This document shows, in pieces, positions 2,703-10,050 of a stretch of DNA of 34,598 nt. This DNA is from a virus: positions 1 to 34,598 of the IMG/VR virus record IMGVR_UViG_3300031658_002151. One strand, 5' to 3'. The number at the start of each line of letters is the position of its first letter. The first letter of the stretch is position 1. The notes below the pieces were generated by a model that ran no database searches, was not told where the DNA came from, and was given only the letters and a program-made list of their open reading frames with translations. Made by a program: the position numbers and the translations under genes.

Positions 2703-2730
2703 TAGTAGTTGTACCTTTCTTTTAAGAACC
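2701..2730 (-). repeat. Flanking direct repeat, copy B (vestigial 3' end of phosphoesterase gene)
   Basis: This is 27/30 identical to 4275-4304. Read on the minus strand in the phosphoesterase frame, and including the adjoining Arg codon, it still encodes Arg-Phe-Leu-Lys-Glu-Arg-Tyr-Asn-Tyr-stop, the exact C-terminus of the gene at 4276-5037. All four base differences over these ten codons are synonymous. It overlaps the end of the carbamoyltransferase N-half gene and provides that gene's stop. Confidence 0.85.
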
Positions 2731-3690
2731 TAAATACAATGTAGTTTGCGGTTTTATTGTAGTATCACCAGTAACTATACGATACACCTTGATAGCTAAC
2801 CCAATTGCGTGACCAGCGTCATTTGAAACAGGCTCGCAATATAGATTAATATCATTAGGAAGGCTTTTTCTGTAATAGTAATTTGCAACACAGTTCAGGC
2901 CATACCCACCAGAGACACATACATTTTTACATTTTGATTTATCAATTGCAAGTTTAATCAAGTTTAACACTTTTTCTTGAGACCATGCTTGCACACTTTT
3001 TGCAATCTCATTGTCGTATGAAGACAGCCCCATAGTCTTACCTTCTTCAAATTGTTTAAACCCAAGCTTTTTAGTAACCCTGCTATATGTAGATCCTATT
3101 CCATTTTCTGGAGTATTAAATTCTTGATACAGTTTTTTGCACTTGGTGTAACTAATTTTCCATATACTTTCACGTTCAAATATAGTGTCTGTACAATCTC
3201 CAGCAAGTGACGTGCCTTGCCCATCAACAACTACACATACTGCTTCTTTAAAACCAGAGTTATAAAATGATTGGACCGCATGTATATTATGGTGTGATGC
3301 TAAGTCAATATAAAGTTTAGTTTCAGGCTTTGCAAATTGTGTTAGATATTCACTTACTAAATTCCACCGCTGAATATCAAAATTCTTATATAGCTCAGTT
3401 GATTTGTCGGCAATTATATTAGTAATATGCTTAAGAGCATCTTCATTATATTCTATAATAAGGTTGTCTAAGCCAGGCATGCCAGCATGATTGCCATCTA
3501 TTAAAAGTGCAATGTAATCTACACTAGAAGTGTATTCTTTAATTTTACTTAAGACTTTAAAACTAGAATCATTTATTAAACTATATTTATTGCCTGACAA
3601 TCTTTCTTCTTCTAAAAAGAGCAGAACTTCTCCATCTTTTAATAGGCAGATTGACCCATGATGCGAAATATTAATTCCTAATATGTACAT
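2722..3690 (-). CDS. Carbamoyltransferase (NodU/CmcH/TobZ family), N-terminal half as a separate gene
   Basis: A 322-aa product corresponding to the N-terminal (Kae1-like) two-thirds of O-carbamoyltransferases, which move a carbamoyl group from carbamoyl phosphate via an adenylate to sugar hydroxyls. Motifs in order: GINISHHGSICLLKDGE and EEERLS near the start, SHHNIHA then VVVDGQG, EGKTMGLSSY, VSGGYGLNCVANYYY and NDAGHAIG. It stops right after LYLG, where family members continue into the C-terminal domain. That domain is encoded by the gene just upstream (3690-4211), and the two are coupled by TGATG. The stop comes from repeat copy B. Whether the split protein is active is unknown. Confidence 0.9.
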   Translation of the reverse strand: MYILGINISHHGSICLLKDGEVLLFLEEERLSGNKYSLINDSSFKVLSKIKEYTSSVDYIALLIDGNHAGMPGLDNLIIEYNEDALKHITNIIADKSTELYKNFDIQRWNLVSEYLTQFAKPETKLYIDLASHHNIHAVQSFYNSGFKEAVCVVVDGQGTSLAGDCTDTIFERESIWKISYTKCKKLYQEFNTPENGIGSTYSRVTKKLGFKQFEEGKTMGLSSYDNEIAKSVQAWSQEKVLNLIKLAIDKSKCKNVCVSGGYGLNCVANYYYRKSLPNDINLYCEPVSNDAGHAIGLAIKVYRIVTGDTTIKPQTTLYLGS

Positions 3691-4211
3691 CAGTTTGGAA
3701 CCTTTACCAGCTTACCAGCATCAGGCAAGTAAAGATATTCAATTGCTGAACTGCGAAGTGTGTGCAAGGCATTGTCTATTGTTTCAACCAGCGGATTGCC
3801 AGCTAAATTAAATGATGTGTTAAAAAGCATAGGAACTTTAGTCCTAGAATAAAACTCTGATATTAAATTATACCAATGTTTGTTTTGAGTAGAAGTAACA
3901 GTTTGAATCCTGCATGTGTGATCTACATGGATAACTGCTGGCACTTTTTCTATGGCTATTGGAAATACATTAACTGCATACATCATAAATGGGGACTCTT
4001 CCAAACCTGCCATGTCAAACCATTGATGCGCATGCTCTAACATAACTGATGCTGCAAATGGCCTGAACCATTCCCGTCTTTTAACTACATTTACAATATC
4101 TTTACCTTTAGGATTTCGTGGGTCAAACATTAATGTTCTATTACCCAAGGCTCGTGGCCCCGCTTCTGACCTGCCTTGGAAAAGTGCAACAATATTTTGT
4201 GCTTCAATCAA
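3690..4211 (-). CDS. Carbamoyltransferase, C-terminal domain as a separate upstream gene
   Basis: A 173-aa product carrying the YrdC-like C-terminal carbamoyltransferase domain: ALFQGRSEAGPRALGNR, KRREWFRPFAASV, VIHVDHTCRIQTV and MLFNTSFNLAGNPLVET. It lies upstream of the N-terminal half, so gene order is permuted relative to the protein. The listed start is TTG at 4211 with no good Shine-Dalgarno. The frame is open for 28 more codons up to a TGA at 4296-4298, and that stretch contains further family-like sequence (FDNQLKERETIID) but no ATG. Poor initiation is a real weakness of the split-enzyme idea. Confidence 0.82.
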   Translation of the reverse strand: MIEAQNIVALFQGRSEAGPRALGNRTLMFDPRNPKGKDIVNVVKRREWFRPFAASVMLEHAHQWFDMAGLEESPFMMYAVNVFPIAIEKVPAVIHVDHTCRIQTVTSTQNKHWYNLISEFYSRTKVPMLFNTSFNLAGNPLVETIDNALHTLRSSAIEYLYLPDAGKLVKVPN

Positions 4212-4274
4212 GTCTATAATATCAGAGTATGTAGCATCAATAATTGTTTCTCGTTCTTTAAGTTGATTATCGAA

Positions 4275-4304
4275 ATTAATAGTTGTATCTTTCTTTCAAG
4301 AACC
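4275..4304 (-). repeat. Flanking direct repeat, copy A (live 3' end of phosphoesterase gene)
   Basis: The last codons of the metallophosphoesterase gene, repeated at 2701-2730 with 27 of 30 bases identical. The two copies bracket the carbamoyltransferase pair. The frame of the C-half, read back into this copy, meets a TGA at 4296-4298. This aligns exactly with the TAA at 2722-2724 that ends the N-half in copy B, so both halves share one frame through the repeat. Confidence 0.85.
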
Positions 4305-5037
4305 GAATTGAAACAGCCATTTCATCAAAGCTACCATCATCAACTTCGTGTAGCACATAAAAACCGCGATAGTGCTTGTTGCCCTGCGCGCCCAAGTAAT
4401 CTTCATGGTGTTCATAGCAACTGCCACAGATTATAGAAGTCATTTCTTTACCATCAGCTCGCTTACCGTAGGCAATATTTCTGCCTTGTTGGTGGCCAGC
4501 AAAGCATGACATGTGTTGTTTGTTTAATGTTGCTTGGGCAGTAGTGATAGGCCTTCCCATAACGCCGCTAGTAAAGTAATGCGAGTAGGCGACCCCATTA
4601 ATAACAACAACATCAAGGAAGGGATGAACTTCCCAGTCCTGATATGGAAGGTCATCGGTGGAGATAAGTCCATCAAGCTTTCTGTCTTCATTGATGGCCC
4701 TGTTAATTCTATGCTCGTGATTGCCTAGCGTCATTACTAAGCGAGGCTTATATTTCTTTTTCTTATGTATCTTTGCGTCTTTATTAAACTGAAAGATGGG
4801 CTTTAGGAGAGCATCCATAGCATCTCTGGCAGACCAAATATCTTTCTGGTAGCTACGCCCTTCAAAAGATTTCATACCCCTGTCATACGAGCTTAAAGAT
4901 TCCATGTCTGCAAAGTCGCCAATGCACACAATAACTTCTGGCTTCTTGTCAACAATATAATTACCCAAGCATTTAAGAAATGTAAAATCGCTGCCATCTT
5001 TAGCTTGAACGTCAGGTATTACTAGGTGTGTCGTCAT
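4276..5037 (-). CDS. Calcineurin-like metallophosphoesterase
   Basis: A 253-aa product with the metallophosphoesterase blocks: IPDVQ (Asp9) near the N-terminus, CIGDFAD (Asp41), TLGNHEHR (Asn106, His107) and, near the C-terminus, CFAGHQQGR. Metal-binding Asp, Asn and His residues are in the expected order. The substrate (nucleic acid, nucleotide or phosphoprotein) cannot be told. Similar genes occur downstream of the lysis genes in many podoviruses. Its C-terminus RFLKERYNY lies in a sequence duplicated on the far side of the carbamoyltransferase genes. A short non-coding gap separates it from the endopeptidase gene. Confidence 0.85.
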   Translation of the reverse strand: MTTHLVIPDVQAKDGSDFTFLKCLGNYIVDKKPEVIVCIGDFADMESLSSYDRGMKSFEGRSYQKDIWSARDAMDALLKPIFQFNKDAKIHKKKKYKPRLVMTLGNHEHRINRAINEDRKLDGLISTDDLPYQDWEVHPFLDVVVINGVAYSHYFTSGVMGRPITTAQATLNKQHMSCFAGHQQGRNIAYGKRADGKEMTSIICGSCYEHHEDYLGAQGNKHYRGFYVLHEVDDGSFDEMAVSIRFLKERYNY

Positions 5038-5069
5038 AACTTTAGAAGTTCCCTTCCACTAAGTTACTG

Positions 5070-5501
5070 TTAGTTATACACCTTTGCGCCAGACTTGTCA
5101 ATAACCAGCATTTGCCTTCTAGGTTTTTCACCAGCTTGTGCAAATCCAATGTGAATCCATGAATTAAATTCCAAGATAAGTTGGTCGAACTCAATGCTTG
5201 ATTCTGCTAACGCTTTCATAATCTCAGGAACTGTTCCAAAGCCTTGACAATTGAAGTCAGCAGCCAATCCTTTAAGATGGTACGAAGTATCTTTGCTTCT
5301 TAACTTGCGGTTTAGTTTTAGGCAACGATAGCCACTAGAAATTCTCATTGAATTACTATACAGCTTGGCTCTTACCGCTTCCAATCCATGAGCAAGTATC
5401 TCTAAGTTAGCTAACGCTTCAGGGGTTGGGGTATTGTCAATGCCAAGCCTTGTTGCAGTGTTGCTATCAATTAATTCAGCCAAGCTAAAGTGTGGTGTCA
5501 C
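5070..5501 (-). CDS. M15-family peptidase endolysin
   Basis: A 143-aa product of the peptidase M15A type (D-Ala-D-Ala carboxypeptidase/endopeptidase). It has ISSGYRC, then SYHLKGLAADF, which supplies zinc ligands His75 and Asp82, and SWIHIGF, which supplies His117. Such enzymes cut peptidoglycan cross-links. There is no signal peptide, so it depends on the holin encoded just upstream, whose stop overlaps this start (ATGA). Length is usual for single-domain phage members. Its position after holin supports an endolysin role. Confidence 0.9.
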   Translation of the reverse strand: MTPHFSLAELIDSNTATRLGIDNTPTPEALANLEILAHGLEAVRAKLYSNSMRISSGYRCLKLNRKLRSKDTSYHLKGLAADFNCQGFGTVPEIMKALAESSIEFDQLILEFNSWIHIGFAQAGEKPRRQMLVIDKSGAKVYN

Positions 5502-6145: not shown

Positions 6146-6871
6146 TTATCTTACTTGGGTAAGCATTATATCGGGACCAGATGTACCTAAACATCCATTG
6201 CAGCTGATTAAATGTTTATCACTTTTCAGCAACTGTTTAACCGCTTCTTCATTTAGCTCAACTCCGTCCTCTTGTACTTTATTAACTACTGGGACAAAAC
6301 ATTTATAATACTTCCCATGAGAGATTGTATTACATTTATGAACTTGTGCATAGTCACAATTGTTATATGTTTTTTGTGCGTCCCTATGTATATCAATTAC
6401 CGCATGTATCTTTTTAAACCTTGATGGTATATGGCAATGAAAAATGACATTGTATTCTTTACATTTTTGTTCCGCATACTTCTTAACATAAGCATTATCT
6501 ATATTAGTCCCAGGGTATAATGACAGTACCAATAAATCAATATGTTCCCAGAACTCTGTAGGTTGCCTGTCTAATAGTTGACCATTTGTATGAACTTTTG
6601 TTATATCAGATACGTTATATTTTTTTACTATCTTTAATAGGTCAACAAGTTTCTTGTGTAGTAATGCCTCTCCGCCAGATATTGCAAACTCGCCAGCATG
6701 AAGAAACTTAGACGCTGCTTCTACATCTTTCTCAAAAATATCTACATCAATAAATGATGCCTTTGTTGACTTTAATTCTGACTTAGATAAGCATCCATTG
6801 CAACTTAATGTGCAGTGAGTAACAACTGGGTAAGTTAAATATGGGACGTTAATCATTTTTTTTAAACCCAT
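6146..6871 (-). CDS. Radical SAM protein with SPASM-like auxiliary Fe-S cysteines
   Basis: A 241-aa product with the CX3CX2C cluster motif (Cys20, Cys24, Cys27 in HCTLSCNGC), the SAM-binding AISGGEALL region, and further C-terminal cysteines (CDYAQVHKC, GKYYKCF, then SCNGC at 224-227) resembling a SPASM/twitch auxiliary cluster. Such enzymes do radical chemistry on peptides or sugars; the substrate is unknown. The start overlaps the glycosyltransferase gene by 23 bases. A second ATG (Met6) gives an 8-base overlap and is equally plausible. It lies at the 3' end of the surface-modification island. Confidence 0.83.
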   Translation of the reverse strand: MGLKKMINVPYLTYPVVTHCTLSCNGCLSKSELKSTKASFIDVDIFEKDVEAASKFLHAGEFAISGGEALLHKKLVDLLKIVKKYNVSDITKVHTNGQLLDRQPTEFWEHIDLLVLSLYPGTNIDNAYVKKYAEQKCKEYNVIFHCHIPSRFKKIHAVIDIHRDAQKTYNNCDYAQVHKCNTISHGKYYKCFVPVVNKVQEDGVELNEEAVKQLLKSDKHLISCNGCLGTSGPDIMLTQVR

Positions 6872-7595
6872 AATTTACAGCCATGTTAATTAGCTCTTCT
6901 AGTGATTCTATTTCTTTAATATTTCTTAAGTGAAACACTTGAGACTTCCCCTCATTTTTTGCAAACTCAGTGGCAAATTTTATCTTACGATTTATTTGTT
7001 TAATATTTCTAACAGGATAATGCGCCAAATACATATTACTTATTTCAATAGAGGGTATTCTTTTATCATTGTAATGAATACAATGGCTTCCTAACATAAG
7101 AATTCCATTTACATTTTTAGGAATTATTACTTTGTAGGCATATTCTGGCTCCTTACTTCTTTGATCAGTCATCTCTAAAGGATAATTTTTATGGTCAAGT
7201 TTATTAGGAATATAGCATTTCCATTTAATTAATCCTACATGATTATCTGGTATTGAAAAAAGTTCATCAAAATTTTTCGCATGTATAAATTCGTCCGCGT
7301 CTAAACAAAACAAAAAGTCTGGGGCAAGTTCAGCCGTTTTAATTTTTTCTTTAAAAAGATTAGTTGTTATTAAGTAATCTTTTGTATTGCTGTATTTTGT
7401 ATATACAACCTCCAGTCTTCCCTTGTATTCAATAGACAGCTTTTCAAGTATCTCAATAGAGCCATCAGTTGAATTGTTGTCTATTACCGTGATTGCATCT
7501 AGCTTTGTTAAGTTATGTCTAATACTAGATTCAAGAATATCGGCACTATTACCAGACATCATAATTGCTTTTACAAGATTGTTTTTATTTATCAT
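6849..7595 (-). CDS. GT2-type glycosyltransferase
   Basis: A 248-aa GT-A-fold transferase: an N-terminal nucleotide-binding region (AIMMSGNSADIL, TVIDNNSTDGS), and the metal-binding DADEF motif at residues 99-103. It then has HCIHYND and LAHYPVR, as in the Glyco_tranf_2_4-like group often found in surface polysaccharide loci. No membrane segment is present, so it is probably cytoplasmic. The start overlaps the desaturase gene by 11 bases. Its end contains a run of eight A at the junction with the radical SAM gene. Donor and acceptor are unknown. Confidence 0.82.
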   Translation of the reverse strand: MINKNNLVKAIMMSGNSADILESSIRHNLTKLDAITVIDNNSTDGSIEILEKLSIEYKGRLEVVYTKYSNTKDYLITTNLFKEKIKTAELAPDFLFCLDADEFIHAKNFDELFSIPDNHVGLIKWKCYIPNKLDHKNYPLEMTDQRSKEPEYAYKVIIPKNVNGILMLGSHCIHYNDKRIPSIEISNMYLAHYPVRNIKQINRKIKFATEFAKNEGKSQVFHLRNIKEIESLEELINMAVNYGFKKND

Positions 7596-8370
7596 ATTTT
7601 TTTCTATTTACATTAACAACATTGGTTGCTAATACATTTTTAATAATCCACGCAGAAAGGTCTTGTTCAGTTTCTTTTATTTTATGTGTATATGAATATG
7701 GAAATGCATGATGATTATTATGCAAACCAGTTCCAAGAGTTATCCAATTAACCCACCTTAAATTTGTACTATAGTCTTTAGTGTTAAAGTTTCTGCTTCC
7801 ATATTTATGACATAATATATTAACTAAATGTGCGCTATGGGAACTTAAGGTTACTCCTATAATTAAAAAGTAAAGTGTAAAGTTTAAACTGCACAAAGCA
7901 CATAGTAATAAAAATGTATAGTAAAGTTTAATGTAGTGTTTATTTACAAACAAGTAAAACTTATTACATATTAACCTTTTATTGATTGGAACTTTTGAAT
8001 GATCAATATATTCAGAGTATAGATAACCTTGCCCTATCCAAGTCATAAATGGATGGGTTGTTGGGTGTAATAAATCTTTTGGAGTGTCTGAATGTATATG
8101 ATGCCTGATGTGGACTTGAGAATAACCTATTGGTTCTCCCATTCCAGACATAAAACTACATAGCCATATAAAGTATTCCATAGGTTTGTTGCACTCAAAA
8201 CTAGAATGGCTATAGTATCTATGTAAACCAATAAAGTGTCCAACGATAGCAAGTAAAAAATACGATAATAAAGATACGAAAAGATATAGTGGTTCCCATA
8301 AAATGATTAACCCAATTATAGACCCCAGAGTAAATACTGGTATTTTAAATCTTAATAACTTTTTAATCAT
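7585..8370 (-). CDS. Membrane fatty-acid (acyl-CoA delta-9-type) desaturase
   Basis: A 261-aa integral membrane di-iron desaturase. All three histidine boxes are intact: HRYYSH (His50-His55), HIRHH (His87-His91) and HNNHH (His217-His221). Hydrophobic helices lie at about 12-45, 63-78 and 146-176. The family inserts a cis double bond into acyl chains. Length is near the bacterial minimum. It overlaps the aminotransferase gene by ATGA and the glycosyltransferase by 11 bases, so it is co-translated with sugar-modifying genes. In a phage it could alter host membrane or lipid A acyl chains, which is inference. Confidence 0.9.
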   Translation of the reverse strand: MIKKLLRFKIPVFTLGSIIGLIILWEPLYLFVSLLSYFLLAIVGHFIGLHRYYSHSSFECNKPMEYFIWLCSFMSGMGEPIGYSQVHIRHHIHSDTPKDLLHPTTHPFMTWIGQGYLYSEYIDHSKVPINKRLICNKFYLFVNKHYIKLYYTFLLLCALCSLNFTLYFLIIGVTLSSHSAHLVNILCHKYGSRNFNTKDYSTNLRWVNWITLGTGLHNNHHAFPYSYTHKIKETEQDLSAWIIKNVLATNVVNVNRKKYDK

Positions 8371-9464
8371 TGAAATGCATTAATACGTTCTACTATTTTT
8401 TGAACTTGAGAATCCGTCAACCTTGGATGTAAAGGAATGCTTAGACAATCTTCATTTAGTAATTCACAATTGTCTAATTTAACATTAGTCTGATTATAGA
8501 TAGAATTTAAATGTAAAGGATGAAACCTAAGTGTAGTATAGATTCCTTCATTTAATAAGTATCTAGCTAATTGGTCTCTATTTTTTGCCCTTATGCTATA
8601 TGTAAAATAGGAATGCCTATCCCCATCGTTAGCATTTACTGGGAGGGTAACATTGCGTAACGAGTCCTGATAATACTGCCAAACATCCTTGCGTCTTTGT
8701 TGTAGCTCATTAATCCTATCAAGTTGAGCAAGCGCAATAGAGGCAGATATATTTGTAGGAATCATTTTTATAAACGGTTCACTTATATCATATTCCCACC
8801 ATCTTTCTTTTGTTGAGGATTGAGAAAAGCTAGAAGAACCAACTCCACAATATCTCAGCTTATTTGCCTTCTCTATTAGACTTGGGTTTTTTGCCGCTAA
8901 CCCACCACCTTCTCCAGCAGCCAGATTTTTAACAGAGCCAAAGCTGTATATCCCAACTTCAGAAATGTTGCCACATGGTTGTCCTTTGTACACGCTATCA
9001 ACAGCATGTGCTGCATCTTCTATAATTGGAAGCCCTATTTTTTTAACTTCATCCATATCAACAGGAAGGCCAGCATAGTGAACTACCATAATTGCTGCGG
9101 TTTTATTTGTTATCTTATTTTCAATATGCTCCCTTGTAACATTCATTGTTGTTAAATCAACATCACAAAAAACTGGTTTGTGTCCAGCCATAACTACAGC
9201 ATTGGCGCATGCAATCCATGTAAAACTTGGGATTATAATTTCAGAACATTTTGGCAAATCAAGTAATTTAATTGCCATAAATAAAGCATTTGATCCAGAG
9301 TCCACCATAGCAAATGATGATAAGTTATAAGCATTTTTAAACTTTAATTCAAACTCAGATACTTTTTTACCTAGGGATAGCCATTGGCTTTCAAGACATT
9401 CTGTTACATTGTCAATTTCTTTTTTACCAATGTCAGAACCAAACACAGAAATCATTTCATTCAT
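8367..9464 (-). CDS. DegT/DnrJ/EryC1-family sugar aminotransferase
   Basis: A 365-aa PLP enzyme of full family length. It has FAMVDSGSNAL for phosphate binding, IIPSFTWIACANAV, the PLP-contacting EDAAHA (Asp150), and catalytic Lys179 in YSFGSVKNLAAGEGG. C-terminal LRFHPLHL and LSIPLHP are typical. Members transfer an amino group from glutamate to 3- or 4-keto nucleotide sugars. No dehydratase is seen in the window, so the keto-sugar would come from the host. It lies 4 bases after the acyltransferase gene, which probably acylates its product. Confidence 0.9.
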   Translation of the reverse strand: MNEMISVFGSDIGKKEIDNVTECLESQWLSLGKKVSEFELKFKNAYNLSSFAMVDSGSNALFMAIKLLDLPKCSEIIIPSFTWIACANAVVMAGHKPVFCDVDLTTMNVTREHIENKITNKTAAIMVVHYAGLPVDMDEVKKIGLPIIEDAAHAVDSVYKGQPCGNISEVGIYSFGSVKNLAAGEGGGLAAKNPSLIEKANKLRYCGVGSSSFSQSSTKERWWEYDISEPFIKMIPTNISASIALAQLDRINELQQRRKDVWQYYQDSLRNVTLPVNANDGDRHSYFTYSIRAKNRDQLARYLLNEGIYTTLRFHPLHLNSIYNQTNVKLDNCELLNEDCLSIPLHPRLTDSQVQKIVERINAFQ

Positions 9465-9468
9465 ATAT

Positions 9469-10050
9469 TTACTCTTCTATATTTTTCTTGATTGCCCTAG
9501 CTGGCTTGCCAGCTAAAACTAAATTATCTCCAAATGATTTAGTGACAACTGTGCCAGCACATATTCTACAGTTATTACCAACAGATACCCTAGGGACTAT
9601 AACAGAGCCAGACCCAATTACAACGCAATCTCCGATAGTTACATATTCTGCAATATGAACATTACTTCCCACCCTGCAATAGTCACCAATCTTAGTTCCA
9701 ACATCTATGTTGCTAAATGAATGCACCCAGCTAGCAAAACCTATTTCAGCTAATGCCCCCACTGAACAGTAGTTGTTTAAAAAAGCAGCATCCTTTACTG
9801 TTGAGTAGTTTGAAACCGCCGCAATGTTACTTATAAACTTAACATGGTTTCTGTCTTTATAAAAGTTGTAATACTCTTTTCTAAAGTAAGGGTCGCCATT
9901 AGCAACAAAAACATTTTGGCTTGTGCTTTCCTTTGTATTCTTACGCCCATCCATCGTATCATCGAAGAATATAAATTCATTTTTTTCGTCAGTTGAAATA
10001 TCCTGTACAATCCAAGACATTTTACCTCGGCAGATAACATCAATAAACAT
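9469..10050 (-). CDS. NeuD/PglD-like left-handed beta-helix acyltransferase
   Basis: A 193-aa product. The N-terminal part resembles a PglD_N sugar-binding domain (FIFFDDTMDG). From about residue 75 it shows hexapeptide repeats of the left-handed beta helix (AEIGFASWVHS, NIDVGTKIGDYCRVG, VTIGDCVVIGSGSVIV, VSVGNNCRICAGTVV), ending in LAGKPARAIK. The family transfers acetyl or other acyl groups to amino or hydroxyl groups of sugars. Its position just upstream of the aminotransferase suggests N-acylation of an amino sugar. The exact sugar and acyl donor are unknown. Confidence 0.86.
   Translation of the reverse strand: MFIDVICRGKMSWIVQDISTDEKNEFIFFDDTMDGRKNTKESTSQNVFVANGDPYFRKEYYNFYKDRNHVKFISNIAAVSNYSTVKDAAFLNNYCSVGALAEIGFASWVHSFSNIDVGTKIGDYCRVGSNVHIAEYVTIGDCVVIGSGSVIVPRVSVGNNCRICAGTVVTKSFGDNLVLAGKPARAIKKNIEE

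Follow-up and report, generated by a model that had tools for sequence, protein, structure and literature searches.

A split C-then-N carbamoyltransferase in a marine phage: probable origin from an out-of-phase monomer

Background

Class III O-carbamoyltransferases (the CmcH/NodU type; PF02543 and PF16861) such as TobZ, GdmN, NovN, and VtdB are single chains, in which a Kae1-like N domain precedes a YrdC-like C domain. Carbamoyl-AMP is formed by the YrdC-like half, and its carbamoyl group is then passed on by the Kae1-like half (PMC6022934, PMC9633730). In GdmN, the iron ligands are H133, H137, D156, and D333, while H27 is the general base (PMC9633730). A hydroxymethylcytosine carbamoyltransferase known from phage contigs also belongs to the carbamoyltransferase family (PMC8670742).

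In the phage locus described here, the same two domains are carried by two chains, and the gene for the C half comes first. The pair is probably a working two-subunit O-carbamoyltransferase, and it probably entered its present position as an out-of-phase N-C monomer.

Layout of the locus

The DNA analyzed, termed the window, is an entire IMG/VR virus record of 34,598 bases, classed as linear. It belongs to a marine phage and contains genes for a podovirus-type tail, a head-tail adaptor, and internal virion proteins. Positions 1–457 encode a RecE-like exonuclease whose 5′ part apparently runs off the contig (the version in the relative L162 has 204 amino acids), so that some sequence is probably missing from this end of the record.

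Four genes follow one another on the minus strand. The first is a calcineurin-like phosphoesterase, termed P (4276–5037; PF00149, E 2.2e-4). It is followed by an ORF with the Carbam_trans_C domain (3690–4280; PF16861, E 1.4e-56), which is the YrdC-like, carbamoyl-adenylate-forming half, and by an ORF of 322 amino acids with an ATG start and the Carbam_trans_N domain (2722–3690; PF02543, E 4.7e-23), which is the Kae1-like transferase half. The last is a 57-amino acid gene termed S (2529–2702). In a Pfam search of the two carbamoyltransferase ORFs, Carbam_trans_N was found only in 3690–2722 and Carbam_trans_C only in the upstream ORF; the scores of the pair, 82.6 bits against a cut-off of 24 and 191.1 against a cut-off of 27, establish both domains. 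No further Carbam_trans_C match was found in the 34,598-base record. The stop codon of C and the start codon of N share one base in the sequence TGATG (3688–3692), and an AAAGG lies about 10 nucleotides upstream of it, within C.

A preliminary description of this DNA had recognized a split, order-reversed carbamoyltransferase with its halves joined by TGATG, and had held that it is not a nonsense-split gene. All three points stand, as C precedes N in separate frames and each domain is present once. The pair therefore has neither the single-chain N-then-C architecture of TobZ nor that of a single-chain circularly permuted protein.

Between the tail-fibre and lysis genes lies a low-GC (0.32) block (6146–10050) with radical SAM, GT2, fatty-acid desaturase, DegT aminotransferase, and hexapeptide-transferase genes. 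The close relative L162 lacks this block and has other genes in its place. A link between the pair and these neighboring genes was considered and rejected, since practically no homologues of them occur beside other carbamoyltransferases (379 loci). A thymidylate-synthase-like gene was not found in the annotated parts of the window.

The insertion site

Three relatives (L162, L163, and L164) have an empty site, at which S directly follows P. P is 90% identical in these relatives, and several genes common to L162 and the window are 97–99.6% identical. No Carbam_trans_C match was found in the contigs of the three, which are fragments.

In the window, the pair is flanked by a 33-bp direct repeat at 2701–2733 and 4275–4307 on the minus strand, with 29 of 33 positions identical (88%) and a longest exact run of fewer than nine bases. 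By comparison, the best match in 30 whole-window shuffles reached 22/33, and the next-best real match on the same strand reached 20/33. The repeat consists of the 3′ end of P and the leader of S, and is duplicated on both sides of a 1.57-kb insert. Its right copy (AAAAGAAAGGTACAACTACTAATGG), which holds the native leader and ATG of S and also supplies the stop codon of the N half, is identical to the empty site of L162. The left copy, which encodes the last codons of P (RFLKERYNY, then the stop) and is joined to the C-half linker, differs from the right copy at synonymous positions of P.

The two ends of the insert fall at one point of the inter-domain linker, to within about 4 residues. The N half ends within this linker as TTLYLGS followed by the stop, with the junction after YLG, and the C half begins with NFDNQLKERETI (NFDNQLK), while the fused protein of L006 reads YYG-PKP-SYDIQLK across the same point.

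Insertion of an out-of-phase monomer is favored for the window by the empty site, by the duplicated flank, and by the breakpoints that coincide in the linker. A circular or tandem-duplicated N-C gene would have been opened in the inter-domain linker, and a fragment of one unit length would then have entered the P/S junction. The coincidence of the two breakpoints would follow from the entry of one such monomer in one step. The linker is presumably the sole interior opening phase that leaves both domains intact; opening within either domain would destroy the enzyme, and selection may therefore explain the phase. The circle and tandem duplication suggested in the preliminary description fit this anatomy, while the recurrence of the C-N order in other phages was outside its knowledge. 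Two normal full-length genes at this place, which it had set against its reading, were not seen, and the near relatives have no carbamoyltransferase at the site.

A possible donor form for permuted monomers exists in L030 (3917–8723), where two fused carbamoyltransferase genes lie in tandem. No second genome with the exact insertion of the window was found.

Distribution of C-then-N pairs

About 300 viral loci, and then 159 more, were scanned with profiles of both domains. The majority of these loci have a fused N-C gene. C-then-N pairs are found in the cultured cyanophages S-RIM44, Sf-FP1, and Sf-CH3, in the marine virus AG-345-D19, and in about 20 IMG/VR contigs, so the order seen in the window is not unique. 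The genes of these pairs overlap by 13, 4, or 1 bases, with one or two pairs merely abutting, and the 1-base overlap of the window pair recurs in L223–L227. Split N chains in the main C-N clade stop at the linker, as does the N half of the window. Among the classified loci, none has C and N joined in that order in a single ORF.

Of the best 80 bacterial and archaeal loci, which are not an exhaustive set, 79 have only fused N-C genes, one has an N|C split in native order, and none has a C-N pair. Splits near the same linker in native N-then-C order were observed in a bacterial MAG (L358:645–2480) and in a viral contig (L422:2965–4603). In addition, three overlapping genes in the order N-C-N occur in seven loci of the ~300-locus set (L269, L277, L278, and L281–L284). 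The two N domains of these loci form sister clades, and one activating domain lies between two transferase domains.

Both S-RIM44 genes are labeled only “putative carbamoyltransferase” in GenBank. A search of open literature yielded no account of phage carbamoyltransferases that are split or permuted.

Origins of the C-N order

In one case, the route to the C-N order can be followed at a single locus. The L228 locus reads thyX-[N-C]-[N]-radical SAM-phoH, and that of AG-345-D19 (L215) reads thyX-C-N-radical SAM-phoH. The [N-C][N] arrangement of L228 recurs in L382, L389, L390, and L396; in each of these five loci (in L228 at 2939–5388), the fused N-C gene is immediately followed by a C-less Kae1-like gene without a linker. 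In the trees, the second N of L228-type loci is the sister of the AG-345-D19 N (100/100), and the fused C of L228 is the sister of the AG-345-D19 C (97/93). Therefore, loss of the first N domain is the best-supported route in AG-345-D19, and its C-N order is not a circular permutation.

The window pair falls elsewhere in the trees. Its N half is placed among fused N domains (97/99; second tree 97/96), apart from the main N-only clades, on a long branch (1.4–2.1) that could reflect relaxed constraint. Its C half lies beside the fused L006 (82/83), which is also the best combined relative of the two halves. Two different paralogues as parents of the halves are not favored, as both halves fall with fused enzymes. 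On bootstrap trees of the N domain, three changes are required to account for the C-N form. The AU test rejects a group of AG-345-D19 with the S-RIM44 clade (p 0.0018) and, in N, a group of AG-345-D19 with the window (p 0.00017). The C-N order has arisen independently at least twice in phages, and a third origin is likely.

It is rather doubtful that the window pair itself arose from a tandem [N-C][N-only] arrangement by loss of the first N, in which case C and N would derive from different paralogues and no strict permutation would have occurred. The sister placements in AG-345-D19 and L228-type loci support such a course in general, and N-only genes behind fused ones are common. However, the N half of the window lies among fused N domains, its union with L215 is rejected as given above, and its union with the second N of L228-type loci is marginal (AU p 0.060). 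Moreover, an empty site with a duplicated flank and breakpoints that meet in the linker would be left unexplained. The similar proposal in the preliminary description, that a first copy lost its N half and a second its C half, comes close to what AG-345-D19 shows against L228 and L382, but the window favors insertion.

Acquisition of the pair ready-made from an S-RIM44-like C-N lineage, with one common origin for both, is unlikely, although a union of the window and the S-RIM44 clade is not rejected by the AU test (N, p 0.23; C, p 0.23; concatenated halves, p 0.145). The two also share the N end in the linker, and the window overlap of 1 bp is that of L223–L227. Nevertheless, the best trees and the bootstraps separate them, placing both halves of the window with fused enzymes and calling for the three changes mentioned above. 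In addition, the C half of the window has the whole linker, which is missing in most S-RIM44-like C genes.

Integrity of the two halves

Neither half has the look of a degenerating gene. Alignments were made of 61 fused N domains and 35 fused C domains, and of the columns with at least 97% invariance the window retains 24 of 25 in the N half and 48 of 49 in the C half. All of the metal ligands (His, His, Asp, Asp) and the catalytic His of the Kae1-like domain are present in N, where H133, H137, D156, and D291, together with H10, align with H133, H137, D156, D333, and H27 of GdmN. In the C half, both the motif and the fold of the YrdC-like domain are present. AlphaFold models of the N and C halves (pLDDT 88.2 and 91.8, pTM 0.89 each) are confident, with each half modeled as a separate domain. 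Among solved structures, the best matches to the N-half model are the carbamoyltransferases TobZ, GdmN, NovN, and VtdB, and the C-half model is predicted to share the fold of VtdB, GdmN, and TobZ (TM 0.82–0.88 by query length), and also of NovN.

The working-enzyme reading is weakest at the start of C. Between 4295 and 3690 the C frame is open but has no ATG or GTG start, and the first ATG, GTG, or TTG codon is the TTG at 4211. The preliminary description had assigned C only a TTG start. This codon is indeed the first of its kind, but homology to fused relatives reaches about 4274 (“NFDNQLKERETIIDATYSDII”), and the C half is therefore longer than a TTG start implies. The candidate starts are ATT at 4280, which follows a copy of the leader of S, ATT at 4244 or 4241, and TTG at 4211. 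In the AlphaFold model, a start at 4211 would leave the protein without its first predicted strand and the greater part of its first helix. With no ATG or GTG, and with TTG 4211 costing this first strand and helix, expression of C is not assured. A frameshift fusion of P to C was also considered and is not favored, as C lies in the +1 frame relative to P and no convincing slippery site was apparent by inspection.

The preliminary description had allowed that the pair may be decaying, and the C half without an ATG start, the long N branch, and a shortened N domain would fit a remnant of inserted carbamoyltransferase fragments without function. Such decay is nonetheless very improbable: neither frame has stops, frameshifts, or a loss of invariant residues as expected of a pseudogene, the catalytic residues are kept, and the ATG of N is coupled to the stop of C. 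The flanking repeat has diverged at 4 of 33 sites, and the frames have therefore survived for some time. An assembly artefact, which a single metagenomic contig with repeats flanking the segment might suggest, is very improbable, since the repeats differ (88%), the same architecture occurs in sequenced isolates, and the reading frames are intact at both insert junctions.

Proposed function

The pair most likely acts as a two-subunit O-carbamoyltransferase. The C-half protein would make carbamoyl-AMP from carbamoyl phosphate and ATP, and the metal-binding N-half protein would transfer the carbamoyl group to an acceptor hydroxyl. Because carbamoyl-AMP is labile and is channeled in the fused enzyme, the two chains are expected to associate, and they probably form a heteromer that restores a TobZ-like channel. 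C may be translated from a non-AUG start adjoining the duplicated S-type leader, and the TGATG overlap may couple its translation to that of N; coupled expression is suggested by the short overlaps that nearly all C-N pairs share.

The acceptor may be a surface or tail glycan, or a modified base. The existence of a phage-type family member that modifies hydroxymethylcytosine (PMC8670742) makes the split forms candidates for base or glycan modification.

A broader interpretation is offered more tentatively, namely that phages have repeatedly turned the fused enzyme into a two-component system, in which a separate carbamoyl-AMP subunit serves different transferases in trans, and that the window reached this state through an out-of-phase monomer. 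In such systems, a small activating subunit would stand ahead of one or more Kae1-like acceptor-specific subunits, as in the C-N, N-C-N, and [N-C][N] clusters. Given the instability of carbamoyl-AMP and the internal channel in TobZ, a naturally split enzyme in reversed order raises the questions of whether split chains can rebuild the channel and whether the activating half can be shared. The fused, tandem, and split relatives provide material for the study of gene fission and domain reordering in phages, including one set at a single locus (AG-345-D19 and L228) and one with an empty-site relative.

Comparison with known systems

HypF resembles the window pair in that its YrdC-like domain precedes the Kae1-like domain, with the same chemistry via carbamoyl-AMP (PMC6022934). 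However, HypF is one chain with additional acylphosphatase and zinc-finger domains, neither of which was found by Pfam in the two window ORFs, and its fold match is much weaker. TsaC/Sua5 with TsaD/Kae1, which act in t6A synthesis, likewise have the activating and transferring domains on separate proteins, but they use another substrate, and the window is clearly nearer to TobZ and GdmN in sequence and fold.

Among phages, the S-RIM44 and Sf-FP1 pairs, in which “carbamoyltransferase” is annotated twice, also have the C gene first with an overlapping N gene second, and N ends at the linker. Unlike the window pair, they lie between thyX and phoH, and their C starts later, with an ATG. Their split probably has a separate origin. 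AG-345-D19 has the C-N order with an ATGA overlap; it differs in its probable loss of a first N, in an N truncated before the linker, and in the radical SAM gene that follows. Finally, TobZ, GdmN, NovN, and VtdB have in common with the window pair the two domains, the metal ligands, the GRSEAGPRALGNR and NTSFN motifs, and the predicted folds.
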